Shown here one piece after another: positions 1 to 13,390 of a DNA stretch of 64,000 bases (its first letter is position 1; each line of letters starts with the position of its first letter). Below the pieces are notes generated by a model. That model had not been told where the DNA came from. It was given only the letters and a program-made list of their open reading frames with translations, and did not search any database. This DNA is from Bacteroidales bacterium (lineage in GTDB: Bacteria > Bacteroidota > Bacteroidia > Bacteroidales > UBA10428), in contig JAFGIP010000073.1 of the NCBI GenBank assembly GCA_016929525.1, positions 1-64,000 of the forward strand. The letters are read 5' to 3'. The position numbers and the translations under genes are program-made.

Positions 1-798
1 CTTAAGACTTCTTCCAAATATGACTTCAGTGAATATTCTGAAAAATCACTCAAAAGGAGACTGACCAAGATTTTGGCTGATAATCGGTTAAATGTCAATT
101 CTTTAATTAATAAAATAAAGAACGACCCGACTTTCGTTGAGAAAATAGTAAAAGAAGTTACTGTTAATACAACAGAGTTATTTCGCGATCCGCAGGTATG
201 GCACGCAATACGGTATGCAATCCTACCTAAACTTAAAAATAATTCCGTCATAAATATATGGCATGCAGGATGTTCTACCGGTCAGGAGGTTTATTCAATG
301 TTAATTGTACTGAATGAAATGGGCCTCCTGGAAAAAACAAAAGTTTATGCTACAGATCTAAATTCCGATGTAATTACCCAGGCACAAAATGGTGAATATA
401 AATATCGCTTCAATATCGGATATCTCGATAACTTCGATAAAGTGGTAAAAGAAAACCCTTACAATTATGAGGAATATTATGATGTTCCTTATGAGAAATA
501 CTTTAAAATTGACAAAGCCTCGGATACTATTAAAATGCACGATTTTCTCAGAGAAAAACCGATATATAAGAAACACGATCTTGTGAAAGATTCAAATACC
601 CTGTATGTAAAATTCGATCTGATCCTTTGCAGAAATGTTATCATTTATTTTAATTATAACTTACAAAGCAGAGTATTCGACCTCTTTCACAGAAGTTTAT
701 ATGATAATGGTTGCCTTATTCTTGGCATGCACGAAACCATTCTTGGATCTTATTCGGTAAAATTTCAGAAAAAAGGACATGGCTATTATAAAAGCTAA
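1..798 (+). CDS. cheR: CheR-type protein-glutamate methyltransferase (5' end cut off)
   Basis: S-adenosylmethionine-dependent methyltransferase of the CheR family, which methylates glutamates in receptor coiled coils. The frame is open from base 1, and the residues before the first usable start (TTG at 73) belong to the all-alpha CheR N-terminal domain (YSEKSLKRRL), so the true start lies left of the window. Visible hallmarks are VNTTELFRDPQVW, the SAM loop GCSTGQE (usual GCSTGEE), the acidic strand end YATDLN and the motif CRNVIIYF. Both SAM-contacting elements look intact, so this is the likely active member of the two CheR proteins here. It is 18 bases upstream of a GAF/PAS sensor and opens the visible part of a nine-gene cluster. 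Known for the family: methyltransferase. Inferred: its targets are the sensors of this operon, since no chemoreceptor is visible. Confidence 0.9.
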   Translation, partial: LKTSSKYDFSEYSEKSLKRRLTKILADNRLNVNSLINKIKNDPTFVEKIVKEVTVNTTELFRDPQVWHAIRYAILPKLKNNSVINIWHAGCSTGQEVYSMLIVLNEMGLLEKTKVYATDLNSDVITQAQNGEYKYRFNIGYLDNFDKVVKENPYNYEEYYDVPYEKYFKIDKASDTIKMHDFLREKPIYKKHDLVKDSNTLYVKFDLILCRNVIIYFNYNLQSRVFDLFHRSLYDNGCLILGMHETILGSYSVKFQKKGHGYYKS

Positions 799-816
799 TA
801 AACATATTGAACTATC

Positions 817-2997
817 ATGAATTTCAGGTTCAAAAATATAACCCAACGTTTCTACCTCCAGGTACTACTTTTTATTGTGTATCTTGTTCTGGTATTTGTT
901 ACGTTAAGATTTTACTCTAAAAAATCAAGCCATTATTCTACAGTAAACAGTAATCTGGATGAGTGTGAAAATATTTTAAACCAAACGCAGATTGCATATT
1001 CAGATTATATGGTGAATATAGGCCATAACGAACGTTTTATACTTGGAACGAACATTACATCTACAGATTTATTCTTTGAAGAGATACAAAGCTTTATAGA
1101 CAGTATTAACTCAATTAGTTCCTTTATTGCCGGTACGGATAATATGTACCAAAAAAATTTAGTGGATAGTCTGCTTGAAAATGTTGGTATATATAGTACC
1201 ACCTTTGAGCATTTAATGCATGCATTCAGAGATCGTGGTTCTGAAAGCGGCGGCAACCTGGCAATTCTAAAGTCCGCTTCGGACAGAATATTAAATAATC
1301 TTATATTCTATACCGATTCTCTCCAGATAATTAAGGGTTTTCAATTAAAAGAACTTGAGGATAAATATCTGATTGATCCTAATAAAGCAAATTTAGAAAA
1401 TATCAATTACATCGTTGACGATCTAATGATGATCAATCCTATCGAATATGAAGAATTGGCTTTTAATTTCGACATACATGACGCGCTAACGGAATATAAA
1501 GAGAAACTTCGTTACCTGAACACCGTTTTTGTCAGACTGGGAAAACCATCAGGAACAACGGGTCTGATTCCGGAAATGGAAAATCAGTACAAATTGATTG
1601 AAAACATTTTTGCTGCTTACAAAAAAGATGCTGCAGCCTTTAGTGTCCAAAAGTCACACACATTGATTATCCTGTGTTTTTCATTTATAGTTTTGCTTTC
1701 ACTTGGATACATCGCCACGATTGTAATTCTGATGCAAAAGATTCGTATTCCTTTAATAAACATTGTAAAATTTACCTTTAATCTGGCTAAAGGAAGGTTA
1801 CTTATTAATCCTTTAGATGCAGAAAGCTCATATGAATTTTCTGTAATCGCAAAGAATTTGAATCAGCTCTGGAATGCTCTTAAAGAGAAAAAGAAATTTG
1901 TTGATAACCTTCTCAAACAAAAATTCAAAACCGATCTTTCATTACAGGGTAAAAGCGATGCATTTGGAAAAACTTTATGGGCACTTAAAGAAAACATGAG
2001 AAAGGCCCGTGATGAGCAGATTAAAAATGAAGAAGAAAATAAACTTCGCCGCTTCCTGAATGAGGGCATTGCCAAGTTTGCAGAAGTTCTTCGAACAAAT
2101 AGTGACGACTTCTCAAAACTTACAGATGAATTTATCAAAGAGCTCGTAAAATATCTTGGCGCCATACAAGGAGGATTATTCCTATACGAAGAAGATGATG
2201 ATACCAGTTTATACCTTGTTTCTGCTTTTGCATATAACAGAAAGAAATATCTTTCAAAAACCGTTGTAAAAGGAGAAGGGCTTATCGGAGCATGTGCCCT
2301 TGAGAAGAAATATATTAACCTGAGTGATATCCCTGAAGAATATATTGAAATAACTTCAGGTCTGGGTGAAGCCTCTCCAACCAATTTATTACTTCTTCCC
2401 GTAATGAAAGAAGATAATCTGATAGGAGTAATAGAACTGGCTGCCCTGAAAAAATTTGATGAATATCAGGTAGAAGTCGGCCAAAATATAGCATCAAGTC
2501 TTGCATCGTCAATAATTGCTACAAAAGCTAATGAACGCACTGCAAAACTACTTGAAAAGTCGCAACAGCAAGCAGCTGAAATGGCCGAGCAGGAAGAAGA
2601 AATGAGACAAAATATGGAAGAACTTAAAGCTACTCAGGAAGAATCGGCCCGCAGAGAAGAAGATCTTGAAGGATTTCTTAAATCCATAAATGAAGCATTT
2701 TATCAGTTACAATACGATACCGAAGGAAAAATTATTAATGTGAACGAAAAACTACTGTTTTTATTAGATAAGAAAGCAGATCAGGTGATCGGAAAATCGC
2801 ATTCTGAACTATTTGGTAAAGGAAGTAAAGCAGACTCGCTGTTATTTGCAAATATTTCTGAAGGCAATGTGGTTGAACTGGATGAGACTATTCAAATTAA
2901 GAAAAAAACCCTGAACATTAAAAACACTTTTTCTCCGATAAAAAACAAAGAAGGACTAACAAAAAAGATTTTAAATATTATTACAGTAAAAGTTTAA
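817..2997 (+). CDS. Membrane GAF/PAS sensor without an output domain
   Basis: A 726-residue membrane sensor. Residues about 13-32 form TM1, followed by a helical periplasmic region (33-283), TM2 at about 284-306, a HAMP-like linker, a GAF domain (about 415-560), a Glu/Gln-rich coiled coil (about 570-620) and a C-terminal PAS-like domain (about 622-726). The protein ends with the PAS domain. No histidine kinase, cyclase, phosphatase or classical MCP signalling hairpin is present, so output must go through a partner. The coiled coil carries RQNMEELKATQEE, almost repeated in the phosphatase gene at 5201-7825, and the GAF domain is closely similar to the one there. Between two CheR genes, it may be a methyl-accepting input subunit. 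That role is inference; the domain layout is read from sequence. Confidence 0.8.
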   Translation: MNFRFKNITQRFYLQVLLFIVYLVLVFVTLRFYSKKSSHYSTVNSNLDECENILNQTQIAYSDYMVNIGHNERFILGTNITSTDLFFEEIQSFIDSINSISSFIAGTDNMYQKNLVDSLLENVGIYSTTFEHLMHAFRDRGSESGGNLAILKSASDRILNNLIFYTDSLQIIKGFQLKELEDKYLIDPNKANLENINYIVDDLMMINPIEYEELAFNFDIHDALTEYKEKLRYLNTVFVRLGKPSGTTGLIPEMENQYKLIENIFAAYKKDAAAFSVQKSHTLIILCFSFIVLLSLGYIATIVILMQKIRIPLINIVKFTFNLAKGRLLINPLDAESSYEFSVIAKNLNQLWNALKEKKKFVDNLLKQKFKTDLSLQGKSDAFGKTLWALKENMRKARDEQIKNEEENKLRRFLNEGIAKFAEVLRTNSDDFSKLTDEFIKELVKYLGAIQGGLFLYEEDDDTSLYLVSAFAYNRKKYLSKTVVKGEGLIGACALEKKYINLSDIPEEYIEITSGLGEASPTNLLLLPVMKEDNLIGVIELAALKKFDEYQVEVGQNIASSLASSIIATKANERTAKLLEKSQQQAAEMAEQEEEMRQNMEELKATQEESARREEDLEGFLKSINEAFYQLQYDTEGKIINVNEKLLFLLDKKADQVIGKSHSELFGKGSKADSLLFANISEGNVVELDETIQIKKKTLNIKNTFSPIKNKEGLTKKILNIITVKV

Positions 2998-3011
2998 GTA
3001 ATGAATTTTAG

Positions 3012-3842
3012 ATGATAGAATTAGGTATTGTTGATATTAGAGAAATTATCAGGTTATTGCAAAATAACTTCAATTACGACTTTTCGAGTCTGGCCCTGAC
3101 GTCGTTCAAATACCGTCTTGAGCATGTTATTGCCAAGAACAATTTAAATAGTGCTGAAAGTTTGTATCGTAAGCTGATTGATCAACCGGATTTCTTTAGC
3201 ACATTCATACATCAGGTATGTGTCCCATCCACTGAAATGTTTCGTGATCCATCATTGTGGAGATGGATGCGTGAATCATATGTTCCTGAATTAGATGATA
3301 AACAGTTAATAAATTTTAAGATATGGCTTCCTTACTGTGTTTCAGGTGGCGAACTTTATTCCCTCGCAATATTTCTTAAAGAACTCGATCTGTTGGATAA
3401 GGTGAAAATCTATGCAACATCTTTTAGCCACAAAAGTATAGATTATATAAAATCCGGCCATTATCCCTTTAAGAAAATAGAAATATCACAGGAAAATTAT
3501 AAACGCTATAAGGGGACCGATGAATTTGTTAATTATTACAAGGAAGACAAATACAATGCTATAAGAGATACATCATTGATAAAAAATGTTGAGTTTATTA
3601 CTGATGACTTTAATTTCAATAATGCCCCGAAAAATGTAAAATTAATATTAATGAGGAATGTTTTAATTTATTTCAATCCTAATCATCAGGATAAGGTCAC
3701 AAAAATAATACATGAAAATTTATCAGCCTCGGGCACTTTTATTATTGGATTAAAAGAACAAATCAGAACAAATACAAATGGCCAGACTCTTTTTGAACCA
3801 GTAAATATTAATGAAAGTGTATACAAAAGAAAGATTGTATAG
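3012..3842 (+). CDS. Second CheR-family protein, SAM motifs altered
   Basis: CheR-like protein of 276 residues, near normal family length. The N-terminal helical domain (about 1-75), the motif TEMFRDPSLW and the late motif MRNVLIYFN are well kept. The SAM-binding loop reads LPYCVSGGELYS where CheR normally has a GCSTGEEPYS-like sequence, and the acidic residue after the next strand (YATD in the first CheR of this operon) is Ser (YATSFS). These are positions that contact SAM in characterised CheR structures. The protein may therefore be inactive or strongly divergent, perhaps a scaffold or regulator of the first CheR. It starts 14 bases after the sensor gene and is 12 bases before cheB. Family assignment is firm; loss of activity is inferred. 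Confidence 0.85.
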   Translation: MIELGIVDIREIIRLLQNNFNYDFSSLALTSFKYRLEHVIAKNNLNSAESLYRKLIDQPDFFSTFIHQVCVPSTEMFRDPSLWRWMRESYVPELDDKQLINFKIWLPYCVSGGELYSLAIFLKELDLLDKVKIYATSFSHKSIDYIKSGHYPFKKIEISQENYKRYKGTDEFVNYYKEDKYNAIRDTSLIKNVEFITDDFNFNNAPKNVKLILMRNVLIYFNPNHQDKVTKIIHENLSASGTFIIGLKEQIRTNTNGQTLFEPVNINESVYKRKIV

Positions 3843-3854
3843 ATTGACAGATAA

Positions 3855-4412
3855 ATGAATTATAAAGCAGTCATAATTGGAGGATCGGCAGGAAGTTTCC
3901 AGATAGTAACACGGATACTTAACTCATTGCCAAAGACATTTCCTTTACCGGTTTTGTTATGCTTGCACAGGTTAAAGCATGTCCGGTCAGGATTTGTAGA
4001 AGCACTTTCTTTAAAATCAAATATTCCTGTCGTTGAACCCTGTGACAAAGACCAGCTGAAATCCGGTATTGCTTACCTTGCACCGGCAAATTATCACATG
4101 TTTATTGAATTGGCTAACAGGGTTGCTTTAAGTGCCGACGAACCTGTAAATCATTCTCGACCTTCAATTGATTTGTCCTTTATTACAGCAGCAAATGCAT
4201 ATCGCGATAAATTAATCGGAATAATTCTATCCGGTGCTAACCGTGATGGAGCATTTGGGCTTAAAAAAGTAGCAGATAACGGAGGGGTTACTTTAGTGCA
4301 GGATCCAAATGAAAGTGAAGTAAAAACTATGCCCGAATCTGTTCTTAAACTTACAAAAGTTGATTACGTATATAGTGCAGACCAAATAATTCGGTTCCTG
4401 CTTAAATTATAA
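3855..4412 (+). CDS. cheB: Stand-alone CheB-type methylesterase domain
   Basis: Protein-glutamate methylesterase/glutamine deamidase of the CheB family, removing methyl groups added by CheR. At 185 residues it is only the catalytic domain; the receiver domain of classical CheB is absent, so it cannot be switched by CheA phosphorylation in the usual way. The catalytic triad is visible: Ser11 in GGSAGS, His38 in LCLHR and Asp131 in SGANRDGA. The loop LAPANYHM and the end MPESVLK are also typical. It sits between the second cheR and a GAF gene with gaps of 12 and 2 bases. Together with the intact CheR it supplies a full methylation cycle. Deamidation of Gln residues in the neighbouring coiled coils is possible but inferred. 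Confidence 0.9.
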   Translation: MNYKAVIIGGSAGSFQIVTRILNSLPKTFPLPVLLCLHRLKHVRSGFVEALSLKSNIPVVEPCDKDQLKSGIAYLAPANYHMFIELANRVALSADEPVNHSRPSIDLSFITAANAYRDKLIGIILSGANRDGAFGLKKVADNGGVTLVQDPNESEVKTMPESVLKLTKVDYVYSADQIIRFLLKL

Positions 4413-4414
4413 AC

Positions 4415-5191
4415 ATGATGTTTAAACAGCAAAAAATACAATTCACAGGAATATTTGCCACTTCAATAGTCCTTATAATACTAATGACCGGATCATTTTG
4501 GAACAGATGTCTGAAATCGGATAAGATCATTTCGTTCTGGCCGGTTATATTCTTTCTGCTTATTTTAATCTCGATGATATTACTGTACATGCTTTATCGC
4601 AGAATAACCGACGAAAAAGCAGTTCAACATTTAGTAGAAAAAGCAGTTTCAGAGGAAAGAACAAAAATTCTGACCGGATTGGAAAATAAAGATAAAGATA
4701 AGGAAACAATAGAAACCGAAGATTTAGAAGTCAAAGCGGGTAAATTGATTCCATCTGGTAATTTTAAGGAGCAACAAAGCTTTGCTAAAAAACTGTTATC
4801 TAACCTGGCTAAAGAACTGGAATTCTCACAGGGAATCTTTTATAGTTACAATAGCAGAAAAAAAGTACTTACCCCCCTGGAAAGCTATGCAATAACTTCT
4901 GAAAAATCATTGCCTGAAATAAGTGCGGGAGAAGGTTTAAACGGGCAGGCAATTCAATCGAAGGAAATCCTGGTCATTAAAGACATCCCGAAGAAATATT
5001 TTGAAATAGAATCAGGGTTAGGAAAAAGTATACCTAAATGTTTGATATTTATACCCATTGTGGATAATAAAAATGCTATTGCTTTACTCGAATTAGCTAC
5101 CTTTAAGGATATTACTGAGGAAACAAAAGATATTTTTAATCGGATTTCGCCAATTATTGCAGAGAAATTTAAAAATATTAAAAAGGCATAA
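4415..5191 (+). CDS. Small membrane-anchored GAF-domain protein
   Basis: A 258-residue protein with two membrane segments close together (about 10-29 and 40-62), a charged linker rich in Lys/Glu (about 65-120) and one cytoplasmic GAF domain (about 125-255). The GAF domain shares the pattern GEGL.GQAI, an IP..Y motif and SGLGKS..P with the GAF domains of the two larger proteins of this operon, so the three look like paralogues. No enzymatic output domain is present. It begins 2 bases after cheB and ends 9 bases before the phosphatase gene, so it is almost certainly cotranscribed. It could be a regulatory subunit that senses the same ligand as, or forms mixed oligomers with, the other two. Its ligand is unknown. 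Confidence 0.75.
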   Translation: MMFKQQKIQFTGIFATSIVLIILMTGSFWNRCLKSDKIISFWPVIFFLLILISMILLYMLYRRITDEKAVQHLVEKAVSEERTKILTGLENKDKDKETIETEDLEVKAGKLIPSGNFKEQQSFAKKLLSNLAKELEFSQGIFYSYNSRKKVLTPLESYAITSEKSLPEISAGEGLNGQAIQSKEILVIKDIPKKYFEIESGLGKSIPKCLIFIPIVDNKNAIALLELATFKDITEETKDIFNRISPIIAEKFKNIKKA

Positions 5192-5200
5192 TAGGAGATA

Positions 5201-7825
5201 ATGACGAAAATATTTAAGACATATAAAAAATTAATCACAGAAGAAGCAAATCTGTTACCGGTTTCCATAATTATTGGATTTCTGCTGCCGGTAATATCAT
5301 GGATCATTGAGATAATAATTCATAAAACACCCGTAACACCGACTGGTATCATTCAGTTACATAAAGAAAACCCATCTCTTATTTTCTTAGATCTTGTTCC
5401 TTTCATATTTATCAGTATTGTCTATTTCTTCCAGAATCGTCAGAATACAAGTATAACACGCTTCGATAATCAAATTAAAGAGAGAGATACCAGACAGCAG
5501 GAAATGGCTGAATTTGCTAACCAGATCGGTGAAGGTAATTTTAATATAAAGCTCGATACTGCTATACATAATGATACCTTGGCTCAGTCTTTACTGGTTA
5601 TGCGCGAGAATCTGTTGTCAAATCATAAAAAGGAAACTGAACAGAGCTGGATAGCTGAAGGAAAAGAAGTAATCTCTGATATATTACGCACTCACAGTAA
5701 GATAATTGAATTATCAGATAAGGTGATACAGTCACTTGTTAAATATGTAAATGTCGTTCAGGGAGCTTTATACTTATATAACGAAGAAAAAGAGGTGTTG
5801 CAAAATGTAGCAACATATGCATACAACCGAAAAAAATACATCAACCAGGAATTTAAAATAGGTCATGGTCTAATAGGTGAATGCGCATATGAAATGGATT
5901 ATATATACCGAACCGAAATACCCGATGATTACACTACTTTAACTTCCGGGATTCTTGGTGAACAGAAGCCTCAAAGTATATTATTGGTCCCGCTGATAGC
6001 AGATGAAAAACTACAGGGAGTCATTGAATTTGCAACTGTTCAGGATCATATACCTGAAAAAACCATTCGTTTCCTCATCGAATTAGCCGAAATCATTGCC
6101 CGGACAGTATTTAACCTGAAGGTTAACCAAAGGACAGAACAACTTTTAAGAGAATCGCAAAAAATGACCCGTGAACTGCAGGAAAACGAAGAACAGTTGC
6201 GGCAGAATGCGGAAGAAATGAGAGCTACTCAGGAAGAGCTTCAAAAATCGAACGAGCAGCTTGAAACCAATATTCTCAAAGTAGAGAATGCGCAGAAACG
6301 TCTATACTCCCTTTTAGAAAATGCATCAGAGATCATTTCCATATATGACGAAAATATGATCCTCACATACGAAAGTCCATCGGTCATTAAAATACTTGGT
6401 TATACCCCGGAAGAAATGATGGGTGGCAAAGATATGGACCGTCTGACCCGAAAAGGAGAATCGGCGATGCGTACCATGTTCAAACAGCTTTTATCAAATC
6501 CGTCTGAAGCTGTTACCATACAGTATACTTATATGAAGAAAAACGGCCAGAAGATCTTTCTTGAAACTACCGGACGAAACCTACTGACCGATTCGGCAAT
6601 TAAAGGAATCATTCTCAATTCTACCGATATAACCGAAAGAAAGAGGGCCGAAAAAGAAGAACGCATGCGTAGTAAGATGCAGGCACTGTCAGAAAATTCT
6701 CTCGACATGATCATGCGTTTAAGTACTGTAGGTCAGTTTTTCTATGCTAACCCTGTTGTTGAAAGATATACCGGAATAGAAGCAAAAGAGCTAATCAATA
6801 AAACACTTAATGAAGTAAACTTTGCAGAGGTGCTTTTTAACTACTTCCGCGATACTATCTCTCAGATTAAATCGAATCCTGAAAAAACGAATTCAGAAAT
6901 AACAATTCCTGCACAAATTGAAGGTATTGAAGGTGAAGAACGTTTCATGAGTTTTGATGCTATTCCCGAGTTCAACGAAAATGAATTAGAGACTATTTTA
7001 TTTGTTGGACATGATATTACAGAAGCAAAACGTATTGAACAGGAAATCCAGGATAAAAATAGGAAAATTGAAGATTCAATTAACTACGCTCAACGAATTC
7101 AGACTTCGATACTTCCAGACAACAGATTCATCAGAGAATTTATTCCAAAATCATTTATCTTCTACAGACCACGCGATGTGGTTAGTGGAGATTTTCCATG
7201 GTTCTTTAAAAAAGATGATCAAATATATATTGCTGCCGTCGATTGCACCGGACATGGAGTTCCCGGTGCGCTGCTGTCATTTATCGGATATTTTCTTTTA
7301 AATAACATAGTAGACCATCCCGGAGATCATACTGCGTCCAATATTATTGACGGATTGCACTATAGTGTCAGAAAAACACTTAAGCAGGAAGATAATGAAG
7401 CGGAAGCACGCGATGGAATGGATATCGCCTTTTGTAAAATTGATTACAATAAAGGTGAATTACAGTTTGCCGGAGCACACCGCCCACTTTATCTTTTGCG
7501 TGATGGTGAACTTGAAGAATTTAAAGGTGACAGAAAAGCAATTGGGGGAATCCCTCACAGGAAAAAACCAGAAAAAGATTTTACTAATTATGTAATAAAT
7601 TTCAGACGCGGAGATAAGATATTCTTCTTCTCAGATGGACTGACTGATCAGCTTGGTGGGTCGGAATTAAAAAAATATTCTCCCAAACGAATTCGGGAAC
7701 AAATTGTTGAGAATAAGGACTTGACTATGGATGAATTTAATACTTTCTTTGCTAAAGACTTTACTGAATGGATGGGGAAAAACAAACAAATTGATGACGT
7801 TTTACTCATTGGTATTGAGTTTTAA
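5201..7825 (+). CDS. Membrane GAF-PAS-PAS PP2C-type (SpoIIE) phosphatase
   Basis: An 874-residue sensor phosphatase. Two membrane segments (about 20-38 and 58-76), a HAMP-like segment (about 95-140), a GAF domain (about 150-310), a coiled coil with QNAEEMRATQEE (about 326-360), two PAS domains (about 368-490 and 493-615) and a C-terminal SpoIIE/PP2C phosphatase (about 625-874). The phosphatase has the metal-binding aspartates expected of an active enzyme: SGDF, AVDCTGHGVPGA, FFSDGLTDQ and QIDDVLLIG. It precedes the siaB-like and siaC-like genes by 26 bases, as the SiaA phosphatase does in Pseudomonas, so its substrate is probably the phosphorylated SiaC-like protein. Architecture and motifs are seen; the substrate is inferred from gene order. 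Confidence 0.9.
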   Translation: MTKIFKTYKKLITEEANLLPVSIIIGFLLPVISWIIEIIIHKTPVTPTGIIQLHKENPSLIFLDLVPFIFISIVYFFQNRQNTSITRFDNQIKERDTRQQEMAEFANQIGEGNFNIKLDTAIHNDTLAQSLLVMRENLLSNHKKETEQSWIAEGKEVISDILRTHSKIIELSDKVIQSLVKYVNVVQGALYLYNEEKEVLQNVATYAYNRKKYINQEFKIGHGLIGECAYEMDYIYRTEIPDDYTTLTSGILGEQKPQSILLVPLIADEKLQGVIEFATVQDHIPEKTIRFLIELAEIIARTVFNLKVNQRTEQLLRESQKMTRELQENEEQLRQNAEEMRATQEELQKSNEQLETNILKVENAQKRLYSLLENASEIISIYDENMILTYESPSVIKILGYTPEEMMGGKDMDRLTRKGESAMRTMFKQLLSNPSEAVTIQYTYMKKNGQKIFLETTGRNLLTDSAIKGIILNSTDITERKRAEKEERMRSKMQALSENSLDMIMRLSTVGQFFYANPVVERYTGIEAKELINKTLNEVNFAEVLFNYFRDTISQIKSNPEKTNSEITIPAQIEGIEGEERFMSFDAIPEFNENELETILFVGHDITEAKRIEQEIQDKNRKIEDSINYAQRIQTSILPDNRFIREFIPKSFIFYRPRDVVSGDFPWFFKKDDQIYIAAVDCTGHGVPGALLSFIGYFLLNNIVDHPGDHTASNIIDGLHYSVRKTLKQEDNEAEARDGMDIAFCKIDYNKGELQFAGAHRPLYLLRDGELEEFKGDRKAIGGIPHRKKPEKDFTNYVINFRRGDKIFFFSDGLTDQLGGSELKKYSPKRIREQIVENKDLTMDEFNTFFAKDFTEWMGKNKQIDDVLLIGIEF

Positions 7826-7851
7826 TATATAAATAATAATAAAGGTGCATT

Positions 7852-8430
7852 ATGGATAATAAAAAAGATGTGAAAGGTTTTCTTGAATTTGTATATGAAT
7901 TTTACAAATCCATGAAAGCCCATGAAATCACCCTGGTGTATGAGGGAGAAATCACACACCAAATCACCAAGGCTTTTACTTCGCTTACGGAGTCTAATAT
8001 GGCTAAGGAAGATGAACCGGGTGCTGTGCAGAGAAAAGTCTTTCATGTAATGGTCGAATGTTTACAAAACATAAGTAAACATGCTGATGACTTTACTTCA
8101 AGTGACTTTCTGTTTTCAGGCCGGGGTATTTTCCTTGTAAGTAAAGGTGATAATGAATACAGTGTGACCACTGGTAATGCAGTGGATAATGATCGTATCG
8201 AGGAGTTGACCACTATGCTTGAAACTATTAACAAAATGGATAAAGACGAGCTTAAGGGTCTTTATAAGCGACAAATGAAAGAAGGACGACTCTCTGATAA
8301 AGGAGGAGCCGGACTCGGGTTTATCGATATTAAAAGAAAAACGGGTAAGGAGCTTGAATATCACTTTCTGCCCATTTCGAACGATACATCATTCTTTTTA
8401 TTAACTTCGACTATTTCAAGAGACGACTAA
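7852..8430 (+). CDS. siaB: SiaB-family protein kinase
   Basis: A 192-residue GHKL-fold Ser/Thr kinase resembling SiaB, which phosphorylates SiaC in the SiaABCD pathway. The N-box is visible as ECLQNISKHA with Glu69 and Asn73, and the ATP-lid glycines as GGAGLGF at 151-157. There is no phosphoacceptor histidine domain, consistent with an anti-sigma-like kinase of a partner switch. It lies 17 bases upstream of the siaC-like gene and just after a PP2C phosphatase, so kinase, substrate and phosphatase are adjacent. A leader helix (FLEFVYEFYKSMKAHEI) precedes the ATPase core. Cytoplasmic. I am confident of the family; that this kinase acts on the adjacent SiaC-like protein is inferred from gene order and the known system. 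Confidence 0.85.
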   Translation: MDNKKDVKGFLEFVYEFYKSMKAHEITLVYEGEITHQITKAFTSLTESNMAKEDEPGAVQRKVFHVMVECLQNISKHADDFTSSDFLFSGRGIFLVSKGDNEYSVTTGNAVDNDRIEELTTMLETINKMDKDELKGLYKRQMKEGRLSDKGGAGLGFIDIKRKTGKELEYHFLPISNDTSFFLLTSTISRDD

Positions 8431-8447
8431 CAATTAAAAGTGTAGCT

Positions 8448-8828
8448 ATGGAAAATATCAAAATTCAAGGAACTGAAGATACGCCCAAAGTAATTCTAGA
8501 TAAGGACAACGAAATAATGGAGATATCGGGCCGCTCTTTACCAGAAGACGTAGCTTCATTCTATGACCCGGTTCTAACCTGGCTTGAAGAGTATTCACAA
8601 AATCCAAACAAAAAAACAATTTTTAATTTCAAACTTGTCTATTTCAATACGGCATCTTCAAAACTTCTTCTTGATATTCTGATGAAACTGGAAGAAATAC
8701 ATGAGGCAGGGAACGATGTGCTTATACGCTGGCACTTCCCCGAGGATGATGAAGATATGGAAGAAGCAGGAGAAGAATACGCTGATATTGTAGATGTTCC
8801 TTTCGAACAAGTGAGTTACTCTTTATAA
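8448..8828 (+). CDS. siaC: SiaC-family regulatory phosphoprotein (DUF1987)
   Basis: A 126-residue cytoplasmic protein of the SiaC/DUF1987 family, the switch component of SiaABC-type pathways. The conserved segment YFNTASSKLLLDIL is present, and its threonine is residue 68, the same number as the phosphorylated threonine of Pseudomonas SiaC as I recall it. The C-terminal half is acidic (EDDEDMEEAGEEYAD). In Pseudomonas, unphosphorylated SiaC binds and activates the diguanylate cyclase SiaD. No GGDEF protein is encoded in this window; the next gene, 37 bases downstream, is an ABC transporter with extra N-terminal regulatory regions. The likely target therefore differs here. Family call is firm, target is inferred. 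Confidence 0.9.
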   Translation: MENIKIQGTEDTPKVILDKDNEIMEISGRSLPEDVASFYDPVLTWLEEYSQNPNKKTIFNFKLVYFNTASSKLLLDILMKLEEIHEAGNDVLIRWHFPEDDEDMEEAGEEYADIVDVPFEQVSYSL

Positions 8829-8865
8829 TTAAGTTGCCAGGTAACTTCTGAAAAACATTTAGGGT

Positions 8866-11800
8866 ATGAGTGAGGAAATTCTTAAGGCTTTAATGCAATT
8901 GTTTGCTATTGTTGCAAAACAAGATGAAGGTGTTGAATCTACCCAGGTAGAATATGTAAAAACCTTCCTACAACAGCAACTGACAGCAGAAAAAGTCGCA
9001 GAGTATTATGCCCTGTTTGAAAAAAATGCAGGATTAACAGATGAAGAGGAAAGAAAAAGTAAACTTACCTCAGTAAAAGATTCTGTCAGGATTCTGGGAC
9101 TTTGTAAAAAAATCAACAAAACACTTACCCAGAAACAAAAAGTTATAGCTCTTGTACGTTTATTTGAAATTGTTAATGCCGACAGAAAATTTACAGATCA
9201 GCGCCTGGCTATTATCAATACAGTTGCAGAAGTATTTAATATAACCCAGGAAGAATTCAAAAGTATAGAGTCTTTTGTTGTAGAAACCGAAACCAGCAAA
9301 TTAGATGATGGAAATATTCTTATTATAAACGATAATCATGATCATTATAAGAATGCCAAAAAGATTAAAACAAAACAGCTTGATACCGATATATTCATCC
9401 TGAGAATTAAAAGTGTAGATTTATACTTCCTTAAGTACGTAGGAAAAGAAGAACTCTTCCTTAATGGTTTACCTGTCAATAATAAGCGAATTTATCTGTT
9501 TGCCAATGGAAGTACTGTAAAACTCCCAAAAGGTGCACCTATTTATTACAGCGACATTGCAGCGCACTTCCTGGCAGATATAACATCACATAAAATTTCA
9601 TTTACAACCCGCGATGTTAGTTTTAAATTTCCAAACGGAAATTACGGCCTCCGGAATATTTCTTTCTCAGAAGGTCATGGCCGTCTTATTGGTATTATGG
9701 GGGCCAGTGGCGCAGGTAAAACCACCTTAATCAATGTACTTTCCGGTATTGATTCGCCATCATCGGGTTCTGTGCTGATCAATAACATTAACCTTCACGC
9801 TGAAAAGGACAAACTTGAAGGTGTTATCGGACTTATCCCGCAGGACGATCTTTTAATTGAGGAACTGACAGTTTTTGAAAACCTTTACTATAATGCTAAG
9901 CTTTGTTTCAAAGATAAATCTGACGATGAAATAAAGCAGATTGTATACAAAACTTTAACAAACCTTGGACTTTACGATCGAAAAGATTTGAAAGTGGGTT
10001 CTCCCCTTAAAAAAACTATAAGCGGCGGACAAAGAAAACGTTTGAATATCGCGCTTGAACTTATCAGAGAACCATCAATCCTTTTTGTTGACGAGCCAAC
10101 ATCAGGATTATCATCGCGCGACTCTGAAAACGTAATGGATTTATTGCGCGAGCTTACCTTAAAAGGAAAACTAATATTCGTTGTTATCCATCAGCCATCT
10201 TCAGACATTTACAAAATGTTTGATAAAATGATCATCCTTGATACTGGCGGTTATATGATATATTATGGTAACCCGGTTGAGGGAGTCATGTATTTCAAGC
10301 GAATGGATGCACAAATCAATAGTGAAGTTGGAGAATGTCCTACTTGCGGTAATGTAAACCCGGAATTACTTTTTAATATTATTGAAGCTCATGTAGTAGA
10401 CGAATTCGGAAATTATACCGATATAAGAAAAATATCTCCGGAGAAATGGGAAGATAGTTATCAACAAAATTTTTTCCCTGAAGAGTATAAACCTGTCAAA
10501 GAAAAACCTCCAAAAACACTGAACATACCAAATTGGTTTTCGCAATTAAGAATATACACCATTCGCGATTTTCTTTCAAAAATAAGTAATCGTCAATATG
10601 TGACCCTGAATTTATTAGAAGCACCGGTACTTGGTTTTATTCTTTCTTATATTATCCGATATATCGAAGATCCGAATTCTAAAATATATATTTTCAGAGT
10701 CAATGAGAATATCCATATATTCATTTTCATGGCTCTTATTGTTGCTTTGTTCCTTGGATTAATGGTTAGCGCGGAAGAAATTGTTAAAGACCGAAAAATA
10801 TTAAAAAGGGAGAAATTCCTGAATCTCAGTCGTTCGAGTTATCTAATTTCCAAAATTTTTATCCTTTTTGTTATCAGCGCTATTCAGGCATTTCTCTTTG
10901 TAATAATTGCCAATAGTATACTTGGAATAAAAAGCATGAACTTCGAATATTGGTTTACATTGTTTTCTACTGCTGCATTCGCAAATATGTTGGGACTGAA
11001 TATTTCTGCCACATTTGATTCAGCCGTTACAATCTATATCCTTATTCCATTACTCATGATACCCATGATGATACTGAGCGGTGCTATGTTTAGCTTCGAT
11101 AAATTAAATCAAAGGGTTGGCCGTATGGATAAAGTTCCTTTTATCGCTGAGCTAATGGTTACAAAATGGGGGTATGAAGCACTTATGGTGCACCAGTTCA
11201 AAGAAAATATATTTACACAAATATTTTATGATCTGGAGCAACAGGAGAGTATGGCCGACTTTAAAAAAGTCTATTTTCTTCCTGTTATGAAAGAGAGACT
11301 TAACAGGGTTGATAAAGAGTTGAAAAATATTAATGCTGTTGATGTAACACGCGATGATCTTAATCTGATTCAGAACGAAATCCGAAAAGAAAATAAACGC
11401 ACCCATGTGTTTGAGGAACTCTATAGAAAACAGGGCAATGAAGAACAGCTGCTTATTGCACCTTTTTATTTTGAAGATGTTGATGGACTGAATCCCGAAG
11501 ACTTTAATCTTAACAAAGCCAGAAAAGTATTTGAGTACCTGAAAAATCTTGAATTGTATTATAGTAAGCTGTTTGCCCTGGCCAACAGGATGCGCCAGAA
11601 TATGATCAATTATTATCTCGAAAATAAACCAGATATGTACCAGGAATATCGTGACAGATATTTTAATGAAAGCATTGCCGATATCCTGAAAAAAGTATAT
11701 GAAAAAAACAAAATTATAGAATATAAAAATGAGCTAATTCAGCACATTGATCCGATTTACGAATATCCGGTCCCCCGCAATGCATTAAGCTTCAGAACAC

Positions 11801-11961
11801 ACTTTTTTGCACCAAAAAAACATTTGTTCGGAAGATATTTTGATACGTACTGGTTTAATATGTGTGTGATTTGGTCACTAACAGTTTTATTTTACGTGTT
11901 TTTATATTTCGACTTATTTAAAAAAATACTTAACGTTGGTGAGCGTTTAAAAAGAAAATAA
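8866..11961 (+). CDS. ABCG-like transporter with TerB-like and FHA-like N-terminus
   Basis: A 1031-residue ATPase-permease fusion. Residues 1-140 resemble a TerB-type helical domain and about 150-240 look like a degenerate FHA-type beta domain (FLNGLPVNNKRIYLF, then STVKLPKG). The ABC ATPase follows, with Walker A GASGAGKTT (about 279-287), signature ISGGQRKRL (about 385), Walker B ILFVDEPTSGL (about 405) and VIHQPSSD (about 441). A linker has a CPTCG motif (about 491-495). The membrane part has five helices (about 578-745), a long soluble insertion (about 750-995) and a last helix (about 998-1021). ABCG-type order (ATPase first) suggests export or membrane extraction. The substrate is unknown. 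Its place behind SiaC suggests it is the regulated output. The FHA call is tentative. Confidence 0.85.
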   Translation: MSEEILKALMQLFAIVAKQDEGVESTQVEYVKTFLQQQLTAEKVAEYYALFEKNAGLTDEEERKSKLTSVKDSVRILGLCKKINKTLTQKQKVIALVRLFEIVNADRKFTDQRLAIINTVAEVFNITQEEFKSIESFVVETETSKLDDGNILIINDNHDHYKNAKKIKTKQLDTDIFILRIKSVDLYFLKYVGKEELFLNGLPVNNKRIYLFANGSTVKLPKGAPIYYSDIAAHFLADITSHKISFTTRDVSFKFPNGNYGLRNISFSEGHGRLIGIMGASGAGKTTLINVLSGIDSPSSGSVLINNINLHAEKDKLEGVIGLIPQDDLLIEELTVFENLYYNAKLCFKDKSDDEIKQIVYKTLTNLGLYDRKDLKVGSPLKKTISGGQRKRLNIALELIREPSILFVDEPTSGLSSRDSENVMDLLRELTLKGKLIFVVIHQPSSDIYKMFDKMIILDTGGYMIYYGNPVEGVMYFKRMDAQINSEVGECPTCGNVNPELLFNIIEAHVVDEFGNYTDIRKISPEKWEDSYQQNFFPEEYKPVKEKPPKTLNIPNWFSQLRIYTIRDFLSKISNRQYVTLNLLEAPVLGFILSYIIRYIEDPNSKIYIFRVNENIHIFIFMALIVALFLGLMVSAEEIVKDRKILKREKFLNLSRSSYLISKIFILFVISAIQAFLFVIIANSILGIKSMNFEYWFTLFSTAAFANMLGLNISATFDSAVTIYILIPLLMIPMMILSGAMFSFDKLNQRVGRMDKVPFIAELMVTKWGYEALMVHQFKENIFTQIFYDLEQQESMADFKKVYFLPVMKERLNRVDKELKNINAVDVTRDDLNLIQNEIRKENKRTHVFEELYRKQGNEEQLLIAPFYFEDVDGLNPEDFNLNKARKVFEYLKNLELYYSKLFALANRMRQNMINYYLENKPDMYQEYRDRYFNESIADILKKVYEKNKIIEYKNELIQHIDPIYEYPVPRNALSFRTHFFAPKKHLFGRYFDTYWFNMCVIWSLTVLFYVFLYFDLFKKILNVGERLKRK

Positions 11962-12042: not shown

Positions 12043-12948
12043 ATGATAAACAGAATAATCGCACTTCTTGTTGTCAGCCTTATTGTTTTCGCCTGTAAAT
12101 CGGGAGGAGATAAAGGTGCCAAAGATGATTTTGTGGTACCTGAAGATGTCGTAACCGAAGGTGTACTCGAAATATCTGAAGAGGTAATGCAGGATATTGT
12201 CCAAAATATATCCTCTCCTGTTGAAATGGCAGCACTTGTTAAAAGTCTCAATGCAAATTTTTCAAATGATTATCTTGCTCCAACCGACAATGTTGATGAA
12301 TTGACAACTGCTTTTCAGCAAGCATTTAACTTAGGTGTTTATGCTGCCGATCTTGGTTATCTGAATATTTACAATAAAACAAATTCTGTGATTGACTATA
12401 TTACAGCTATTAAAACCCTGGCCGACGGTGTAAGGGTTGGGCAATTTTTCGATTTTACAACATTAAAAAGACTGGCGCAGAGTAACCAAAACCTTGATTC
12501 GCTAATGTACATTTCAGTCCATAGTTTTAATCAGATGGATAAATATCTTCGTACAGATAACAGAAGCAATTTAAGTACACTAATGGTAACAGGTGTATGG
12601 ATTGAAGGATTATACCTGGCAACACAAGTAGCAAAGGAAGACCCCCATCCGGAACTTGCAGAACGTATCGGAGAACAAAAGATAATTATGAATGACCTTA
12701 TGGTTATTCTTGAGAACTATAAAAGTGATAAACAATTTAACAGTCTGATCGAAGATTTAAGGGTACTTAAAAGCGAATTCAATGATGTAAGTATAACAAT
12801 ACAAAAAGGTGAGCCGGAAGCAATTGAAGAAAACGGAATGTTGGTCATTATTCAAAATGATATTAGTATCGTTAATATATCACCTGAAAGACTTCAGAGC
12901 ATCATTGAAAAAACTGAAAAAATCCGTAACAAGCTAATTAGTCTATAA
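12043..12948 (+). CDS. Conserved lipoprotein of unknown function
   Basis: A 301-residue lipoprotein. The chosen ATG gives a signal peptide MINRIIALLVVSLIVFAC with the lipobox cysteine at residue 18; an upstream TTG at 12001 would add 14 residues before the signal and overlaps a promoter-like box. The mature part is mostly helical, with a conserved-looking stretch LGVYAADLGYLNIYNK and later GVWIEGLYLATQ. I recognise this pattern from Bacteroidota lipoproteins but know no function. It begins 81 bases after the transporter gene and ends 1 base before the next gene. It may act with the exporter in the envelope, but only gene order supports this. Confidence 0.75.
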   Translation: MINRIIALLVVSLIVFACKSGGDKGAKDDFVVPEDVVTEGVLEISEEVMQDIVQNISSPVEMAALVKSLNANFSNDYLAPTDNVDELTTAFQQAFNLGVYAADLGYLNIYNKTNSVIDYITAIKTLADGVRVGQFFDFTTLKRLAQSNQNLDSLMYISVHSFNQMDKYLRTDNRSNLSTLMVTGVWIEGLYLATQVAKEDPHPELAERIGEQKIIMNDLMVILENYKSDKQFNSLIEDLRVLKSEFNDVSITIQKGEPEAIEENGMLVIIQNDISIVNISPERLQSIIEKTEKIRNKLISL

Positions 12949-12949
12949 T

Positions 12950-13390
12950 ATGAAAAATATCCTGAAGCTTATTTTCCTTACATCTGTTATCATTAGCATA
13001 GGGACTACTGCTCAAGATAATGTGGAATTGGTTGCACAGTGTGCCGCAAGTGCAGGAAATGTCACATATCTGAAGGATTTTGTTGTTAAACTTGATGCCG
13101 GAGTACCGGGTGGCAAACCTCCCTCAGCTAAATTTTCAATGGTTCTTAGTAAAAACACCCAATATCGATTCTCAATCTGCACAGCTCCTGATTCTGAAGG
13201 AGAAGCCATTCTTCAATTATTTGACATGAATGTATTGCAGGGAAGTACATACATAAGTGCCACAGGAAAAGAATTTCCATTCTTTGATTTTAAATGTCAA
13301 AAAACGGGCGTTTATCATGTGTTTATATCTTTTAAAGAAGGTAAAGTCGGAGAATCTGTCGGAATTCTCTCTTTTGTAAAAAAATTATAA
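12950..13390 (+). CDS. Small secreted protein of unknown function
   Basis: A 146-residue protein with a Sec-type signal peptide (about 1-21, ending near TTAQ). The mature domain contains four cysteines (in QCAAS, SICTA and FKCQK, with one more in the signal-proximal part uncertain) and beta-strand-like alternation, compatible with a small extracytoplasmic beta-sandwich. The start codon follows the stop of the lipoprotein gene by 1 base, so the two are translationally coupled. A bidirectional terminator hairpin follows about 20 bases after the stop, making this the last gene of the signalling cluster. No family recognised. Confidence 0.65.
   Translation: MKNILKLIFLTSVIISIGTTAQDNVELVAQCAASAGNVTYLKDFVVKLDAGVPGGKPPSAKFSMVLSKNTQYRFSICTAPDSEGEAILQLFDMNVLQGSTYISATGKEFPFFDFKCQKTGVYHVFISFKEGKVGESVGILSFVKKL

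Follow-up and report, generated by a model that had tools for sequence, protein, structure and literature searches.

In Pseudomonas, the SiaABC partner switch acts on the diguanylate cyclase SiaD. Unphosphorylated SiaC activates SiaD by direct binding to its helical stalk, and phosphorylation of SiaC at Thr68 by the kinase SiaB abolishes this binding (PMC8457831). SiaC is structurally STAS-like, and the authors of the SiaC-SiaD structure proposed that DUF1987 proteins commonly modulate adjacent proteins (PMC8457831). Here we analyzed a SiaABC-type gene cluster of a Bacteroidales bacterium, located in the first 64,000 nucleotides of contig JAFGIP010000073.1 (this whole stretch is referred to as the window), in which siaC is followed by the gene of an ABCG-type ATP-binding cassette (ABC) exporter.

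A similar phosphatase (PP2C), kinase and antagonist logic is found in the STAS-type switches HsbA-HsbD and BgrV-BgrR. Their partners, however, are diguanylate cyclases, and the SiaC family is distinct in sequence. The closest precedent on the exporter side comes from Mycobacterium tuberculosis, where the ABC exporter Rv1747 carries N-terminal FHA-type domains and is modulated by the co-encoded Ser/Thr kinase PknF (PMC3908365, PMC5549992). Rv1747 binds the phosphoprotein Rv2623 by its FHA I domain (PMC5549992). The locus described here shares an exporter with a predicted N-terminal FHA-type domain and a co-encoded kinase, but in place of a Hanks-type kinase and two FHA domains it has a GHKL-type SiaB, SiaC as an intermediate, a TerB domain, and a single predicted FHA-like domain lacking the binding signature.

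With SiaABCD of P. aeruginosa it has in common the order phosphatase-kinase-SiaC-effector in one operon, a collinear SiaC with Thr68, and conserved active sites. In contrast to SiaABCD, the place of the effector is taken by an ABCG-type exporter that has a lipoprotein and a secreted protein as partners, the phosphatase bears other sensor domains, CheR/CheB genes lie upstream, and the genome is free of GGDEF domains. The literature that we searched, which included only a minority of subscription papers, contained no earlier report of the SiaB and SiaC families outside Pseudomonas or of a TerB-FHA ABC exporter in Bacteroidetes. This suggests that the exporter output is new, the partner switch itself being already known. 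Most likely, the locus is a SiaABC-type partner switch wired to an exporter. We regard it as fairly probable that it represents a conserved envelope module of the Bacteroidia in which the switch controls the exporter.

The SiaABC-type genes and the exporter gene

Genes for a PP2C phosphatase, a SiaB-type kinase, a SiaC-type phosphoprotein and an ABCG-like transporter form a tight run in which 26, 17 and 37 bases separate successive genes (Table 1). The coordinates of the open reading frames as well as the Pfam and NCBIfam assignments agree in this with a preliminary description made from the sequence alone. As also stated there, the fourth gene does not code for a SiaD-type GGDEF cyclase activated by SiaC; Pfam assigns its product to the ABC transporters.

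The SiaC-family protein scored 143.7 bits against PF09345 (cut-off 24.5) and the kinase 173.6 bits against the SiaB family protein kinase model NF038262 (subfamily cut-off 85). Scores against the models of the Pseudomonas equivalogs were below their cut-offs, namely 90.7 versus 150 bits for SiaC (NF038265), 79.9 versus 225 bits for SiaB (NF038264), and 168.6 versus 700 bits for SiaA (NF038263), the last involving the PP2C part only. The alignment of the window's SiaC with P. aeruginosa SiaC of known structure (6kko, 7e6g) was free of gaps, and hence Thr68 of the former is the equivalent of the phosphosite. This threonine is present in 87 of 91 transporter-linked relatives and replaced by serine in 3. 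The metal-binding aspartates D664, D681, D812 and D866 of the PP2C domain are kept across relatives, and the N-box residues E69, Q72 and N73 of SiaB are invariant in 89 of them. The active-site residues and the threonine reported in the preliminary description were not only confirmed but found to be conserved. Judging from these retained residues, phosphatase and kinase look like working enzymes, and phosphorylation of Thr68 by SiaB and its dephosphorylation by the PP2C protein are predicted.

Conservation of the SiaC-transporter linkage

Conservation was assessed in a class sample of 295 Bacteroidia genomes and in a named-genome sample enriched for close relatives. In total, 160 transporter loci were read, and loci cut by contig ends were excluded from adjacency counts. 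SiaC adjoins the transporter in 57 of 73 named-genome loci, 56 of them co-directional, and in 27 of 71 class-sample loci (9 co-directional, 16 convergent, 2 other). Our own arithmetic, which assumes some 5 SiaC genes in a genome of 3.6 Mb, gives a chance adjacency of about 1%. Linkage of SiaC and transporter is well above chance, and the adjacency on which the preliminary interpretation depended is thus conserved.

Two arrangements prevail. In the first, represented by the window, SiaC lies 5' of the transporter gene in the same direction and the lipoprotein and secreted protein genes lie 3' of it; most close relatives show the order PP2C-SiaB-SiaC-ABC-lipoprotein-secreted protein. In the second, a lipoprotein-secreted protein-transporter series is oriented head-on to SiaC-SiaB. 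Since the genes of this convergent order are located in different transcription units, co-transcription alone is insufficient to explain the linkage.

A full-length transporter was found in 157 and SiaC in 173 of the 295 class genomes, both together in 154. SiaC is present in 154 of 157 genomes with the transporter versus 19 of 138 without it (Fisher p 2e-57, phylogeny not corrected for). Two of these 19 genomes contain fragments of the transporter, and several are not complete. In those exceptions that are complete (families f61 and f85), SiaC sits on a long branch and its gene precedes that of a coiled-coil membrane protein. Elsewhere in the phylum, outside the class, only the ABCG core of the transporter was matched. 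In genomes that have SiaB-SiaC but lack the transporter, SiaC is followed by a protein of 184-194 amino acids (aa) with a coiled coil and a transmembrane (TM) segment (L246:2595-3149, L248:3607-4173, L253:4241-4825). These proteins contain an LLTSVSDRLQ segment resembling by eye the motif by which the SiaD stalk binds SiaC, with single-sequence scores that were not significant.

The transporter tree splits mainly by arrangement, adjacency changing 25 times versus 42-51 times in shuffles. The SiaC tree consists of two clades separated by linkage type (2 changes versus 12-17 in shuffles), and these follow the two transporter clades. Each arrangement occurs once in the window's genome (contigs C115 and C38), which also encodes a third transporter that has no SiaC beside it (C85) and another, more distantly related one (C33). 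Its two transporter-adjacent SiaC proteins fall in their own respective clades, apart from most other paralogues. In 20 of 20 genomes with a lone transporter, a SiaC of the matching second clade is present, adjoining SiaB except in one case where the contig ends.

Alternatively, switch and exporter may answer the same envelope signal while SiaC acts on another target, be it a different SiaC partner or a regulator with its gene elsewhere, the linkage reflecting a shared stress regulon without direct control. SiaB-SiaC and the transporter are unlinked in many genomes, no docking was predicted (see below), and 17 SiaC versus only 5 SiaB genes in the window's genome suggest a wider network. Nevertheless, the near-perfect co-occurrence, the matched clades and the adjacency in two orientations exceed the usual trace of shared regulation, and we consider this explanation unlikely, though the most serious of the alternatives.

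Absence of GGDEF domains

No GGDEF domain was found in the window's genome, the assembly of which is 97.7% complete. Hence, SiaC cannot act on a GGDEF enzyme in this organism unless the gene resides in the missing 2%. A GGDEF protein encoded elsewhere as the SiaC partner, which the preliminary description had named as one of two findings that would contradict it, was rejected for the genome as sequenced. Likewise, 288 of the 295 class genomes are without GGDEF, leaving 7 that have it. Proteins of the SiaC family are widespread, but the diguanylate cyclase SiaD is the only partner with which their action has been elucidated. The module provides a concrete, testable second case for the proposed modulation of adjacent proteins, and this case lies in a class in which SiaC is common and GGDEF nearly absent.

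Domain structure of the transporter and its partner proteins

Pfam recognized TerB, ABC_tran (residues 262-413) and ABC2_membrane (560-778) in the transporter. The residues of the Walker and signature motifs are invariant, and TIGR00955 matched with 3e-78. The nucleotide-binding domain (NBD) with these motifs precedes the ABC2_membrane transmembrane domain (TMD) in one chain, and a CPxCGNxNPE motif precedes the first TM segment, as in ABCG/White-type exporters. Unlike these, the protein has a TerB and FHA-like N-terminus, about 250 residues between its last clear TM segments, and a total length of about 1030 residues. The TerB profile scored 34.8 bits (cut-off 24.4) and matched 55 of 59 relatives. 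The N-terminus was predicted with a mean local confidence (pLDDT) of 90.7 as a TerB-like helical domain (best structural match 2h5n, Z 8.2, root mean square deviation 3.6 over 115 residues) followed by an FHA-like sandwich. Structural matches of the latter (residues 147-233) were nearly all FHA domains, with a best Z of about 7 and a Foldseek E of about 0.1, and Pfam FHA gave no match in the transporter. The canonical phosphothreonine-binding residues (Gly-Arg, Ser-x-x-His, Ser-x-Asn-Gly-Thr) are not conserved; only Ser183 (86%) and Asn200-Gly201 (100% and 90%) of the signature are retained.

This domain raises the possibility of the opposite polarity, in which the transporter would read phospho-Thr68 and phosphorylated SiaC would be the bound form. 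Such an arrangement has a precedent in the binding of Rv2623 by FHA I of Rv1747 in M. tuberculosis (PMC5549992), and the predicted FHA-like fold as well as the conserved phospho-acceptor threonine of SiaC would fit it. Because the phosphothreonine signature is missing, the FHA-like domain is less likely to be the reader of phospho-Thr68, and canonical FHA reading was rejected on these grounds. Also, no docking was seen in the fusion model described below, although this model was without phosphate. We therefore regard the opposite polarity as improbable.

The complex of SiaC with the transporter N-terminus, suggested in the preliminary description, was approached via a natural in-frame read-through fusion SiaC-linker-TerB-FHA. 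The individual domains were predicted confidently; their docking was not (predicted template modelling score 0.62, only 13 paired sequences). A motif corresponding to the SiaC docking site of the SiaD stalk (residues R74-D91, PMC8457831) was sought along the transporter. Helix 70-86 appeared similar by eye, its score was not above that of other sites or shuffles, and it was dropped as a candidate.

According to hydropathy, the long stretch of about 250 aa separates the last two clear TM segments, and by analogy with ABCG proteins it is probably extracytoplasmic. In most genomes, the transporter gene has the lipoprotein and secreted protein genes with it, either upstream or downstream, and neither product had a credible match in the Protein Data Bank or Pfam by sequence-profile search. 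The stretch and these two proteins, taken together, suggest a function in export across the whole envelope. This exporter system, the two partner proteins of which belong to no known family, is undescribed and occurs in about half of the sampled Bacteroidia genomes.

Proposed mechanism

We propose that membrane GAF/PAS sensors feed the PP2C phosphatase, possibly adapted by the orphan CheR/CheB pair, and that the phosphatase and SiaB would together set Thr68 phosphorylation of SiaC. In analogy to SiaC on the SiaD stalk, unphosphorylated SiaC would dock on the cytoplasmic part of the transporter, either the TerB-like/FHA-like N-terminus or the NBD, and change its activity. Across the envelope, the exporter would then cooperate with the lipoprotein and the secreted protein in moving its substrate. 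Phosphorylation of SiaC would in this way switch export, as inferred in the preliminary description.

Binding of SiaC to the transporter and its effect on activity, like the sign of the contact, the role of CheR/CheB and export itself, are inferred. Several points weigh against this mechanism. The fusion prediction yielded no confident arrangement of SiaC and transporter, and the scan of the transporter for the SiaD docking motif gave nothing above chance. Furthermore, 44 of the 71 assessable class-sample transporters are without a nearby SiaC, a few genomes have SiaB-SiaC pairs but no transporter, the co-occurrence statistic ignores phylogeny, and the choice of unlinked SiaC as the best Pfam match per genome may have introduced a bias.

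BceAB-type transporters serve as flux sensors for their kinases. In a similar manner, the transporter might be on the input side, moving or sensing an envelope signal, with its state read by SiaC or SiaA. The SiaC-transporter link is compatible with either direction of control, and the operon contains membrane sensors but no obvious output gene besides the transporter. In the only characterized SiaABC system, however, SiaC is the output arm, and the transporter possesses regulatory-looking cytoplasmic domains of its own. We consider an input role very unlikely, slightly more so than the opposite polarity.

Control of the exporter by the switch is the reading that we prefer, and it can be extended. 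Tentatively, SiaABC-type switches may serve as general adaptors under phospho-control, and their main output in Bacteroidia, a group largely without cyclic di-GMP synthesis, may be to gate a dedicated TerB-FHA-ABCG exporter post-translationally. This exporter would have a lipoprotein and a secreted protein of its own, and orphan CheR/CheB sensor methylation would form the adaptation layer. We hold this extension to be possible, with somewhat more doubt than belief. If it is true, the phospho-gated TerB-FHA-ABCG exporter would stand for a novel type of regulated export system.

Extent of the locus

The unit is larger than positions 5201-11961, to which the preliminary description had confined it. 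Its four genes stand, its start and end do not: an unbroken series of genes for CheR, a membrane GAF/PAS sensor, CheR, a receiver-less CheB and a membrane GAF protein precedes the phosphatase, and lipoprotein and secreted protein genes follow the transporter (Table 1). The block from the CheR/CheB and sensor genes to the secreted protein is conserved. Much of its upstream part, CheR and CheB especially, is found in identical order in many relatives among the Bacteroidales and Cytophagales. The window begins at base 1 of its contig, and the first CheR gene is cut at its N-terminus. Promoter and terminator scans gave counts about equal to those of shuffles. The earlier interpretation is partly supported overall; it had overlooked these genes as well as the genome's 17 SiaC paralogues.

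Table 1. Genes of the locus in the window
Feature	Position	Strand	Basis
CheR-type methyltransferase, N-terminus lost to contig start	73..798	+	Pfam CheR 8e-37; 279-aa orthologue in relative locus L106, 80% identity
Membrane sensor: extracytoplasmic region between two TM segments, then GAF and PAS, without kinase domain	817..2997	+	Pfam GAF_2, PAS_9; hydropathy; 42% identical gene at same place in L106
Second CheR-type methyltransferase	3012..3842	+	Pfam CheR 2e-27
CheB methylesterase without receiver domain	3855..4412	+	Pfam CheB_methylest 2.8e-48 across whole protein; gene of relatives at same place 51-83% identical
Membrane-anchored GAF protein	4415..5191	+	Pfam GAF_2 2.5e-7; two TM segments
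SiaA-like PP2C phosphatase: N-terminal TM segments, GAF, two PAS, C-terminal SpoIIE/PP2C	5201..7825	+	Pfam; catalytic Asp conserved; PP2C part versus NCBIfam SiaA 2e-49, below cut-off
SiaB-family (DUF6272, GHKL-type) protein kinase	7852..8430	+	Pfam 8e-42; NF038262 above cut-off; invariant N-box
SiaC-family phosphoprotein, phosphosite Thr68	8448..8828	+	Pfam PF09345 2.6e-42; collinear with solved SiaC 6kko; conserved T68
ABCG/White-type exporter, 1031 aa, NBD then TMD; TerB-like aa 1-140, FHA-like aa 147-233	8866..11961	+	Pfam, NCBIfam, predicted structure, hydropathy
Lipoprotein LPP12, lipobox Cys18, without Pfam family	12043..12948	+	Cys invariant in 41 relatives; adjoins transporter in most loci
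Small secreted protein SEC, two conserved Cys, without Pfam family	12950..13390	+	Alignment of 43 relatives; at most 2.5 kb from 126 of 160 transporters

The CheR and CheB genes (73-4412 of the window) resemble an orphan methylation system. The methyl-accepting chemotaxis signalling domain PF00015 (MCPsignal) is absent from the window's genome, and CheR and CheB therefore probably serve the upstream sensors of the locus. In three Nafulsella/Cesiribacter-like loci (L156, L157 and L160; 15.0-18.8 kb), the main operon is followed, a few kb 3' of it, by another cluster with PP2C and SiaC-SiaB.

SiaC paralogues in the window's genome

The imbalance between SiaC-family genes and SiaB-family kinases in the window's genome (G000, 4.06 Mb) points to an extensive SiaC network that is served by a small number of kinases. 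SiaC genes number 6-21 in each member of the family to which this genome belongs. Among 16 intact paralogues (L015-L034), the phosphosite is Thr in 9, Ser in 5, Ala in 1 (L027) and Asp in 1 (L023:7384-7806). The Asp copy is in tandem with a Thr copy and may be a permanent mimic of phosphorylated SiaC. A further SiaC copy (G000:C11:28703-29032) is broken by a TGA codon and probably is a pseudogene.

The third transporter paralogue (L030:5737-10313, G000:C85) is accompanied by a lipoprotein and a secreted protein, has no SiaC neighbour, and is divergent from a gene starting with a response-regulator-like domain. At L032:6347-8477 (G000:C112), a SiaB gene without transporter or SiaC was found beside a lipoprotein paralogue and a receiver-domain gene, near hydrogenase-like genes.

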